Source: Bryobacteraceae bacterium (GTDB lineage Bacteria; Acidobacteriota; Terriglobia; Bryobacterales; Bryobacteraceae). From it: 64,000 nucleotides of DNA. The notes below the pieces were generated by a model. It was not told where the DNA came from, made no database searches, and worked only from the letters and a program-made list of their open reading frames with translations. Below are positions 3,502-6,400 of this stretch, piece after piece. Position 1 is the stretch's first letter. The number at the start of each line of letters is the position of its first letter. Both the position numbers and the translations under genes were made by a program. The stretch covers positions 186,001 to 250,000 of the forward strand of contig BPGE01000001.1 of assembly GCA_026002875.1 (NCBI GenBank). The letters are read 5' to 3'.

Positions 3502-3927
3502 CTACTTCAGATCCATCTCCCGCAGCGACGGGTCGCGCAGGTCCACGCGCATCTCTTCCTGGCAGCACTGGCATTTGCCCGGCGACCACGCGCGGATCGA
3601 GCACACATCGCACCAGTAGGTCACCACCAGCCGCTTGCCCCCGCGCCACACGAACAGCGCACGCTCGTGGATCGGATCCACCACGAACACCGCAGGCGTG
3701 CGGAACCGCCCGAGAACCTCGAAGTCTTCGTCCTTCAGCCGTTCGTCGCGCAGCACGGCCGTGGTCGGCTCGTCGGCTTCCAGCTCCACCGTGCGTCCGT
3801 CTTTCGCCGTGATGGCTGGCGGCAGCGCGGCGTCCTGCCGCAGCCGTCCGCGCAGGCTCTGCTTCTCCTCGCTCCTCAGAAGCAAGGCCGCCACGGGCAG
3901 CAGAAGCCACTGTCTCCGCGAAGTCAT
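3502..3927 (-). CDS. Exported Cys-rich protein coupled to the metal ATPase
   Basis: Unrecognised family, 141 aa. The start is set by an ATGA overlap with the stop codon of the P-type ATPase gene, which implies translational coupling; longer in-frame readings upstream lie inside the ATPase and are shadows. The N-terminus is a signal-like segment (MTSRRQWLLLPVAALLL). A short beta-rich middle follows, with AVFVVDPIHERALFVW. Near the C-terminus a CDVC pair and a CQCC cluster about 12 residues apart form a likely four-cysteine metal site. The position suggests a periplasmic or membrane-anchored metal-binding partner of the ATPase. That role is inferred from the cysteines and the coupling only. Confidence 0.8.
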   Translation of the reverse strand: MTSRRQWLLLPVAALLLRSEEKQSLRGRLRQDAALPPAITAKDGRTVELEADEPTTAVLRDERLKDEDFEVLGRFRTPAVFVVDPIHERALFVWRGGKRLVVTYWCDVCSIRAWSPGKCQCCQEEMRVDLRDPSLREMDLK

Positions 3928-5969
3928 TTCTCTCTGAATGGATGAGCCTCGGCCCTCAGGAGTCGCAGGCCGTTCAGCGTCACGACCAGCGTAGCGCCGG
4001 TATCGGCGGCGACGGCCATCCACAGCGTCGCCCTGCCCGTGGCCGCAGCCGCCAGAAACGCGGCCTTCAGCGCCAGCGCCAGCCCGATGTTCTGCCGGAT
4101 CACGCGCAGCGCCCGCCTTGCATGCGCCACCAGAAACGCCGTCTTTTCGAGCGCGGGGCCCGTCACGATCACGTCGGCGGTCTCCTGCGCCGCCTCCGCG
4201 GATGGCGACGCCACGCTGATGCCCACGGCCGCCCTCTTCATCGCCTCGGCATCGGCCACGCAATCGCCCAGCATTCCGGCTGCGCCTGTCTCCTGCTGGA
4301 GCCGTTCGATCTCCCGTGCCTTCTCTTCGGCCGACAGTTCAGCATGGACCTCCGTGATGCCCGCCGCCCTTGCCGCCGCCTCCGCCGCGGGCGCCGGATC
4401 GGAAGCCAGCAGCACGATGCGCTCCACGCCCAGCCTTCTCAAAGCATCCACCTGACGGCGCGCCGCAGCCAGCGGCGCATCGCACCACGCCTCCAGCACG
4501 CCGCTCTGCCGCGCGGCGACAATGCAGCCCTCTCCCGCCAGAGCGCCGATTCGTTCCGCCATCGCCTGCGTCATGCCGCCCGCCGCCGCCCATTTCGGCG
4601 TCAGCGGAATCCCTCCGCCCTGCCCGGCGCGCCACCGCTGCCACTGTGCGATCTCTTCCCTCTGCTCCTCGCTCAATGTTTCGCTGCGCGCCAGCCGCGG
4701 CTCGCCCTGGGTCAGAATCCCGGCGCGGTCCATCGCCAGCGCCTTCAGCCGCCCCGCCGCTTCCAGAAACGCGCCGCCCTTCACGAGCACTCCGTTCCGC
4801 GCCGCGCTGGCCAGCGCCGCCATCACGGTCACCGGCGTCGAGATGACAAACGCGCACGGACAGGCGATCAGCAGCACCACCATGCCGTGATACAGCCACT
4901 CGCTCCAGCCTCCACGCCCCAGCGCCGGCGGCGCAACCGCAACAGCCAGAGCCAGCAGCAGCACCGCCGGCGTGTAGCGGCGCGCGAAGCGCTCCACCAG
5001 ACGTTCGCTCTCCGCTTTCCGGCTGCCGGACTCCTCCAGCATGCGCAGCATCCTCTGCAGCCGCGTGTCATGCGCCGCCCGCCGCACTTCCACCAGCAGC
5101 GTCCCGCTCTGGTTCAGCGTGCCCGCAAACACCTCGTCTCCCGCGCGCTTTTCCACCGCCACGGACTCGCCCGTCAGCGGCGACTGATCCACCAGCGACT
5201 CGCCTTCCAGTACGGCGCCGTCGCAGGGAACGCGCTCGCCCGGCTTCACCCGCACCCGCGCGCCCGGCTGCAGGGTCTCCGCTTCCACGCGGTGCTCGTG
5301 GTCTCCGTGAACCAGCCACGCCTGCGCCGGCATCAGCTCCAGCAGCCGCGCCACGCTCCGCCGCGCCCTCTCGAGGCTCAGCGACTCCAGCCTCCCGGAC
5401 AGTCCGTAGAGAAACGCAAGTGTCGCCCCTTCCGCCCACTCGCCCAGCACCGCCGCCCTAGCCAGCGACACCGCCACCAGCAGATTCATGTCCGCCCGCG
5501 CGCTCCGCAGCGCCGCCCACGCCTTGCGCCAGAACAGGCTCGCCCCCGCGGCGATCGACGCCGCGTAACAAGCCAGCGCCGCCGCCGGCATGGCGTGATG
5601 ATGCGCCTCGCCGGCGTGGCTGTGCGCCAGCAGCGCGTCCACCACGCCCTCGCCATGCCACACCTGCAGCCCCATCCCGCCCGCCAGCAGCCCGCCGCTC
5701 AGCCAGAGCGCGGTCCCCGCCCAGTCCCGCGCGGAACGCTTCTCCGGACGCGCCGACCATTTCTCGCAGCACATCCCGATGCTCTCCACCGCCGCGCGGA
5801 TCGCTTCCTCGCTTGTCACGCCGGGCGAGTACTCCACTTCCATCAGCCCGCGCGCCACATCGAAATGCAGCTCGCGCACGCCCGCGACGCGGCTCAGCCG
5901 CGCCCGCAGCAGAGACACTTCCTCCCCGCAGTCCATGCCGAGGACGCGAAGCTGGATTCGCCTGTTAAT
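3924..5969 (-). CDS. P1B-type (Zn/Cd/Pb-like) ATPase with degenerate catalytic motifs
   Basis: Built like a ZntA/CadA exporter, 681 aa from the proposed start. Residues 1-70 form one HMA metal-binding fold with an MDCGEE motif and a later MCC. A His-rich loop (HSHAGEAHHH) sits between the first membrane helices. The actuator motif TGES (266-269), the membrane CPC (370-372) and the TM8 Asp of the Zn group (D656) are all present. The phosphorylation motif DKTGT is instead DRAGI (414-418), and the hinge GDGxNDxP is GDCVADAE (from 568). The nucleotide domain is short and has no HP motif. The first ATG (5936) would cut off the first HMA strand and has no Shine-Dalgarno. An ATT at 5969 has GGAGG seven bases upstream and restores the strand. 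It may be a pseudo-pump, a metal sensor or a divergent subfamily. Confidence 0.85.
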   Translation of the reverse strand: MNRRIQLRVLGMDCGEEVSLLRARLSRVAGVRELHFDVARGLMEVEYSPGVTSEEAIRAAVESIGMCCEKWSARPEKRSARDWAGTALWLSGGLLAGGMGLQVWHGEGVVDALLAHSHAGEAHHHAMPAAALACYAASIAAGASLFWRKAWAALRSARADMNLLVAVSLARAAVLGEWAEGATLAFLYGLSGRLESLSLERARRSVARLLELMPAQAWLVHGDHEHRVEAETLQPGARVRVKPGERVPCDGAVLEGESLVDQSPLTGESVAVEKRAGDEVFAGTLNQSGTLLVEVRRAAHDTRLQRMLRMLEESGSRKAESERLVERFARRYTPAVLLLALAVAVAPPALGRGGWSEWLYHGMVVLLIACPCAFVISTPVTVMAALASAARNGVLVKGGAFLEAAGRLKALAMDRAGILTQGEPRLARSETLSEEQREEIAQWQRWRAGQGGGIPLTPKWAAAGGMTQAMAERIGALAGEGCIVAARQSGVLEAWCDAPLAAARRQVDALRRLGVERIVLLASDPAPAAEAAARAAGITEVHAELSAEEKAREIERLQQETGAAGMLGDCVADAEAMKRAAVGISVASPSAEAAQETADVIVTGPALEKTAFLVAHARRALRVIRQNIGLALALKAAFLAAAATGRATLWMAVAADTGATLVVTLNGLRLLRAEAHPFREK

Positions 5970-6034
5970 GAGAACGCCTCCTCAAATATATTCTAGCCTT
6001 CCTTTTGCGATTCAGGTATGACAGAAGTTTGACC
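5970..6034. promoter_or_regulatory. Divergent promoter region between metal ATPase and His-rich protein
   Basis: This 65-base gap is much more AT-rich than its surroundings and must hold both promoters. It contains the 8-base palindrome AATATATT, a -10-like element just upstream of the ATPase Shine-Dalgarno. No convincing -35 box or known Zur/ArsR/MerR operator could be recognised. Metal-responsive control is an inference from the flanking genes. Confidence 0.45.
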
Positions 6035-6400
6035 ATGGCGCAACACAGGATCCATCCGCAGCACGCGCATGTCCACGGCGAAGGCTGCGGTCACACCGCC
6101 ATCCGCCACGGAGGCCACGTGGACTACCTGCACGACGGCTGCCTGCACACCATGCACGGCGATCACGTCGACGAGTGCACGCTGGAAGTTTCCCCCCAGA
6201 ACCCTGATGCCTGCACGCCGGAGCACGTCTGCGAGGGCCACGAACCCGGCCATGTTCACGGTCCGGGCTGCGGTCATGAAGCCGTGCCCCACGCCGATCA
6301 CGTCGACTATCTGGTCGGCGATCACCTCCACCACCCGCACGGGGGCCACTGCGACGACCACGGCCCCGTCGATGTCGTGCGCGTCGAATCCCGGCAGTAA
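6035..6400 (+). CDS. His/Cys-rich metal-binding protein with internal tandem repeat
   Basis: A small soluble protein of 121 aa without a signal peptide, extremely rich in His, Gly, Asp and Cys. It contains two copies of a unit of about 36 residues. Each begins HVHGxGCGH, continues through (G/A)DHVDYL or GGHVDYL, and ends in an HGDHVDE/HGGHCDDH block. An extra segment with three cysteines separates the copies. Histidine-rich cytosolic proteins of this kind are found beside Zn/Cd P-type ATPases and are thought to buffer metal. Here it is divergent from the degenerate ATPase. The ATG at 6035 was preferred to an in-frame TTG at 6005 because the repeat-like composition starts there. Confidence 0.8.
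   Translation: MAQHRIHPQHAHVHGEGCGHTAIRHGGHVDYLHDGCLHTMHGDHVDECTLEVSPQNPDACTPEHVCEGHEPGHVHGPGCGHEAVPHADHVDYLVGDHLHHPHGGHCDDHGPVDVVRVESRQ

Follow-up and report, generated by a model that had tools for sequence, protein, structure and literature searches.

P-type ATPases owe their name to the phosphorylation of a single aspartate. A pump put to another use has a precedent in CFTR and SUR, ABC proteins that have turned into a channel or a regulator; these belong to another superfamily and still bind ATP. The nearest published parallel that we found to the gene described here is the disputed human protein TMEM94/ERMA. According to one report, the aspartate of ERMA (DKQGI) is needed for ATP-dependent Mg2+ uptake in liposomes (PMC13322241), while TMEM94 had no ATPase activity in detergent, autoinhibition being left open (PMC12134183). 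In these papers the human protein has a P-type fold with ten transmembrane helices, a relaxed motif, an occluded nucleotide pocket and GSSANL for GDGVND, and it is without TGES. A P-type body with degenerated signatures is also found in the P4-ATPase-like domains of apicomplexan guanylate cyclases, as described for PfGC-beta (PMC6592433); those domains are fused to a cyclase and belong to the lipid-flippase lineage, whereas the protein described here is stand-alone and of the metal type. The literature matches listed (titles and starts of abstracts, with subscription papers mostly outside) contained none on an inactive, pseudo or degenerate P-type ATPase of bacteria.

The window, i.e. the whole stretch of 64,000 nucleotides that was analysed, contains a gene that we regard, with good confidence, as a conserved pseudo-P-type ATPase. 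It lies at 3924..5969 on the minus strand (the coordinates of its parts, below, are on the same strand) and is open throughout its 681 codons in the ORF reading of the window. The 670-residue part from 5936 scores 418.4 with TIGR01525 (cut-off 346.25) and 391.1 with TIGR01512 (cut-off 313.5; both NCBIfam), and the Pfam domains of the protein are E1-E2_ATPase, HAD and HMA. Going by its sequence, the protein is by descent a zinc/cadmium-type P1B ATPase; going by the motifs tested, it is not a working P-type ATPase.

The comparison with the ZntA-type P1B pumps (4umv, TIGR01512) gives many common features: full-length homology, HMA, an A domain with TGE, CPC, equivalents of K693 and D714, and a locus equal to that of a canonical orthologue in genome G218. 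The differences are that DKTG, GDGxND and HP are lost, that the N domain is cut or absent, and that the Asp is lost in 5/14 orthologues. TMEM94/ERMA differs in other respects. Its family is marked by the absence of TGES and by GSSANL, as opposed to the TGE and the GDxxxD Asp pair found here in 14/14 members each; CPC is kept as well, and the Asp is absent in five members. The nucleotide pocket, occluded in the human protein, is cut away in the pseudo-pumps, whose likely ancestral state is provided by the canonical orthologue found at their locus. The relaxed motif itself is similar, DKQGI there and DRQG[I/V/L] in four members here.

Distribution and graded loss of the catalytic motifs

An orthologue of the altered type is present in all 5 genomes examined of the window's genus and in all 9 examined of a second genus of the same family. 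The 14 genes are unbroken frames in 14/14 genomes, among them the single-contig genomes G000 (the window's own) and G002. Since the altered state recurs in 14/14 genomes of two genera it is more than chance, and a sequencing error in one genome, which the earlier note on this DNA had named as a way to refute its reading, is contradicted. The family-wide search covered 237 genomes, 83 of them with a match at E 1e-30, the best 10 candidates per genome being scored. Among the matches listed, a profile of the altered P/N region had a full-length match in 12 genomes only; the match of two 571-residue forms is confined to its last part, and none of the remaining ones starts before model position 35. 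A sample of 396 genomes from the phylum (limit E 1e-45, best 6 candidates per genome) yielded a sole full-length match, that of the window's own genome. A branch with support 100/99 separates the pseudo clade from the rest, and the clade is nested among canonical pumps in midpoint-rooted trees, the first of which left out 13/59 rows (G009 among them) while a later one took in 22/35 canonical rows. The scan of named genomes returned a sole relative, DYJN01000002.1 (L042), which is labelled Arcobacter sp. Its pump protein is identical to that on contig C69 of G003, a member of the window's genus, and its stretch has 68% G+C, so that the label looks wrong. Structure prediction for the window protein plus L042 gave a mean pLDDT of 36.

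Motifs were counted on an alignment of 14 pseudo and 35 canonical proteins, without 7 near-duplicates, 2 short rows and 3 outgroups (L001, L051, L052). By motif reading and alignment, DRAGI (4716..4730) replaces DKTG[V/T] in the window protein, and GDCVAD (4251..4268) replaces GDGxND with both Asp kept. The catalytic Asp is present in 9/14 pseudo-pumps as opposed to 35/35 canonical relatives; the DKTG Lys, the middle Thr and the GDGxND Asn are each present in 0/14 vs 35/35, and the HP motif in 0/14 vs 34/35. The earlier note had taken the Lys and both Thr as lost. All three are indeed absent, but the last Thr is nothing special, as the canonical relatives have V in 29, T in 5 and I in 1 of 35 proteins at its position: DKTGV is the usual form in this lineage, so the loss is no sign of decay. 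More telling are the change of K to R, the replaced middle T and the altered GDGxND. The other features that the note had read, namely TGES, CPC, the TM8 Asp, DRAGI, GDCVAD, an intact 681-codon frame with no stop and a short nucleotide-binding domain without HP, are all confirmed, the motifs at the same positions.

The loss is graded. The five members of the window's genus have DR[A/S/H]GI, and G050, G254, G255 and G251 have DRQG[V/I/L]; G250, G253 and G256 read GRAGV and so have lost the aspartate, which is likewise missing from G252 and G257, along with the N domain and a large part of the P domain. Across the clade the middle T of DKTG has become A/S/H/Q/E, and GDGxND is replaced by GDCVAD, ADCVAD, GDTAAD, GDCSAD or [G/A]DGLTD. 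The stretch from D to GDG has 154 residues in the window protein, 154-157 in 12 members and 44 in two, as opposed to 189-200 in the 35 canonical relatives; the window's nucleotide domain is about 40-45 residues short and the HP segment is absent. Where that segment was, the alignment of the 12 long members has a rebuilt N-domain remnant common to them, WxxWxxxxGxxxxLTP (4596..4643 in the window), in which W443, W446, G451, T457 and P458 are invariant and L456 nearly so. The Mg site is partly preserved, as both Asp of GDxxxD are kept in 14/14 orthologues; the Lys of the EEK segment is kept in 12/14 and gapped in 2.

A pump with loosened motifs, still driven by ATP or another phosphate, could be argued from these remnants, i.e. 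from the Asp in 9/14, the GDxxxD Asp pair and TGE in 14/14 and the EEK Lys in 12/14, and from ERMA, whose DKQGI protein is reported to depend on the Asp for ATP-dependent Mg2+ uptake (PMC13322241). We consider it improbable, since the Asp is missing in 5/14, HP and the middle Thr are missing in 14/14, and the membrane part is still constrained; TMEM94, moreover, was without ATPase activity in detergent (PMC12134183). A subfamily with another nucleotide chemistry, as the earlier note had suggested, is weakened by the five orthologues without Asp, in two of which the N domain and a large part of the P domain are missing too, and because the members without the aspartate stay constrained it is unlikely.

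G009 has kept its N domain and HP motif, yet its motifs are DKTAA and GDSVHD. As it clusters with the pseudo clade (15 rows, 100/99), the motif change may precede, or be separate from, the deletion in the N domain. In the tree it pairs with G252/G257 (94/90, below the tool's star), a pairing that, if true, would mean more than one deletion event. Within the stretches examined, a natural series is found at one locus: an intact pump (G218), a form with altered motifs that still has its N domain (G009), forms with the Asp but a truncated N domain (the window's genus and four others), forms without the Asp (G250, G253, G256), and finally forms with no N and little P domain (G252, G257). From the series one can see which parts of a P-type pump persist after the loss of ATP coupling, and it is relevant to the continuing controversy over TMEM94/ERMA. 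Note that curated annotation models miss the loss of the engine. L089 and L090, members of 571 residues, have no N domain and little of the P domain; L090 still passes the metal-translocating ATPase model TIGR01512 (332.7, cut-off 313.5) and is just under the cut-off of TIGR01525 (341.3 vs 346.25).

Selection and the retained transport path

The pseudo-pump is under purifying selection. Whole-gene dN/dS (Nei-Gojobori) is 0.061-0.236 in 10 within-clade pairs and 0.020-0.260 in nine canonical pairs, and 0.020 for the A domain of the aspartate-less pair G250/G253; for some of these values dS is saturated, and three of those for single domains were not computable. A slowly decaying gene or an assembly error might be suspected from the motif letters that vary between species and from the two kinds of deletion, but with an open frame in 14/14 genomes (single-contig G000 and G002 included) and with this range of dN/dS it is hardly credible. 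The earlier note had proposed a pseudo-pump instead of a decaying gene, together with a search for homologues of the altered motifs and a dN/dS analysis. Both have now been run, with altered motifs in 14/14 genomes and the within-clade values given above, and its reading is borne out by the 14 orthologues, the conserved synteny and the purifying selection.

The conservation is unevenly distributed along the protein. Of the columns invariant in the 35 canonical proteins, 43/46 in the membrane part are invariant in the pseudo clade too, as opposed to 7/29 in the P/N part (domain borders, also those for dN/dS, were set by hand); the Fisher p of 4.6e-10 is too small because of the shared ancestry of the sequences. 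By region, 10/12 are kept in M1-M4, 19/20 in M5-6, 14/14 in M7-8, 13/19 in the A domain and 2/2 in the HMA part, and 2/8 in P1, 0/5 in N and 5/16 in P2.

The same pattern is seen in individual residues. E202, K693 and D714 of ZntA are residues that we take to lie on the transport path, K693 and D714 forming the zinc site with CPC. Mapped by alignment and counting, they correspond to E180 (5430..5432), K635 (4065..4067) and the last-helix Asp D656 (4002..4004); these three, CPC (4854..4862) and the TGE of the actuator-domain TGES (5163..5174; TGES itself in 13/14) are each present in 14/14 members of the pseudo clade. The actuator domain also carries HGDHEHR (5289..5309), whose three His (H221, H224, H226) are found in 14/14 pseudo-pumps and in 26-30/35 canonical relatives. 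It is a possible extra metal site.

Locus, neighbours and possible function

The gene order is OmpH - aldose epimerase - CxxC gene - pump - (divergent) His-rich gene - prephenate dehydrogenase - DAHP synthase, and it is common to the pseudo-pumps, within the stretches examined, and to the canonical G218 of another genus. In the canonical G016 the shared part is pump - epimerase - OmpH, and in G009 it is pump - CxxC gene - epimerase - OmpH; five other canonical loci are without these neighbours, save the His-rich gene in two (G015, G046), and so is a second pump copy in G002. As the locus is shared with G218, the simplest reading is that the pseudo-pump descends in place from a normal pump. Downstream lies a gene with CxxC and CxCC motifs (3502..3927, minus strand), which is found at 14/14 pseudo-pump loci and overlaps the stop of the pump by 4 bases. 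The divergent gene (6035..6400, plus strand) encodes a small His-rich, Cys-containing protein with no Pfam or NCBIfam match at E 0.1. Its family occurs in 25/101 related genomes, in several of them divergent from a zinc-type P1B pump, and it stands beside 12/14 pseudo-pumps.

Taken together, the data suggest a pump turned into something else, e.g. a passive metal gate or a sensor; metal sensing or facilitated transport, which the earlier note had proposed, is plausible. Our best guess is that in the lineage of the two genera a zinc-type P1B pump, at a fixed chromosomal site, ceased to run its ATP-driven phosphorylation cycle and that the ex-pump persisted as a membrane protein whose new function does not depend on ATP. 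The unphosphorylated protein would still bind a Zn2+-like metal at the CPC/Lys/Asp site and let it pass downhill, acting as a slow carrier or gate, and the A domain would keep the remains of the P domain in place, TGE having a structural role instead of that of a phosphatase. Cytosolic free zinc is normally kept very low; the flow would therefore be mostly inward, and the zinc would enter a buffer formed by the neighbouring His-rich protein. In our judgement the chances of an ATP-independent metal pathway or gate, the pseudo-pump claim included, are evenly balanced. The more specific proposal, a passive metal gate or uniporter evolved in place, with the His-rich protein as a cytosolic metal trap and hence the sink that makes downhill uptake useful, is tentative; if true, it would be a pump-to-channel conversion within the P-type superfamily.

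Several observations count against a gate. Firstly, TGE and the GDxxxD Asp pair in 14/14 members are what one would expect if the cycle worked, and are surprising if it is dead. Secondly, the His-rich gene also adjoins canonical pumps and is missing at 2/14 pseudo loci (G251, G255). Thirdly, no zinc-import deficit sets the pseudo-pump genomes apart: ZnuA (PF01297) was found in 0/25 genomes (14 pseudo, G009 and 10 canonical) and ZIP (PF02535) in 2/14 pseudo-pump genomes vs 0/11 others. Importer loss does not track the pseudo-pump, and we rejected it as support for an uptake role.

The main rival is a metal sensor or regulatory scaffold, which would bind zinc and report on or control another transporter while moving no metal. 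A P-type body can persist without its signatures, as in malarial GC-beta, whose P4-ATPase-like domain is called degenerated (PMC6592433), and a new invariant stretch replaces the HP part in the 12 long members. We nevertheless find a sensor rather doubtful: no signalling domain appeared in the Pfam scan of six window genes (the pump and those around it), every transport-path residue tested is kept, and two members are wholly without the rebuilt N remnant.

A protein that works in a complex and is energised in trans by another P-type ATPase would need a partner, and G000 has three other P-type ATPases. The nearest is about 120 kb away, however, and the P and N domains of P-type ATPases act in cis, which makes such an arrangement very improbable. 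Of these, L001 has copper TIGR01511 as its best model (591.7 vs 397) and also passes the TIGR01512 cut-off, and L004 passes the general P1B cut-off only, with the copper model scoring above the cadmium model; by this typing of two of the three (L002 being the third) no normal zinc-type copy is seen in G000, which also has three cation-diffusion facilitators. G002 has a normal zinc-type pump elsewhere (DKTGT, GDGVND), and G251 and G253 have longer homologues of 735-807 codons.

Translation start of the pump gene

The first ATG in frame lies inside the metal-binding motif GMDC, and there is none before it. The start is probably the ATT at 5967-5969, behind a GAGGAGG box, and an in-frame TGA stands 5 codons upstream. 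ATT starts are known from infC and pcnB. The start block TTGAGGANNNRTTCTCATTAA (5965..5985), comprising the ribosome-binding site and the ATT, is conserved in the orthologues: the start codon is ATT in 15/16 orthologues read (13 pseudo, G009 and G218), G004 alone having ATG at exactly the same position, and the block is present with at most one mismatch at the pump gene in 15/16 genomes. A regulon built on this block was considered and rejected, as the block is nearly confined to the pump gene. G000 and G002 have one extra site each, both with a single mismatch, and G009 has a second copy, on a contig that also carries the His-rich gene and is probably an overlapping one.
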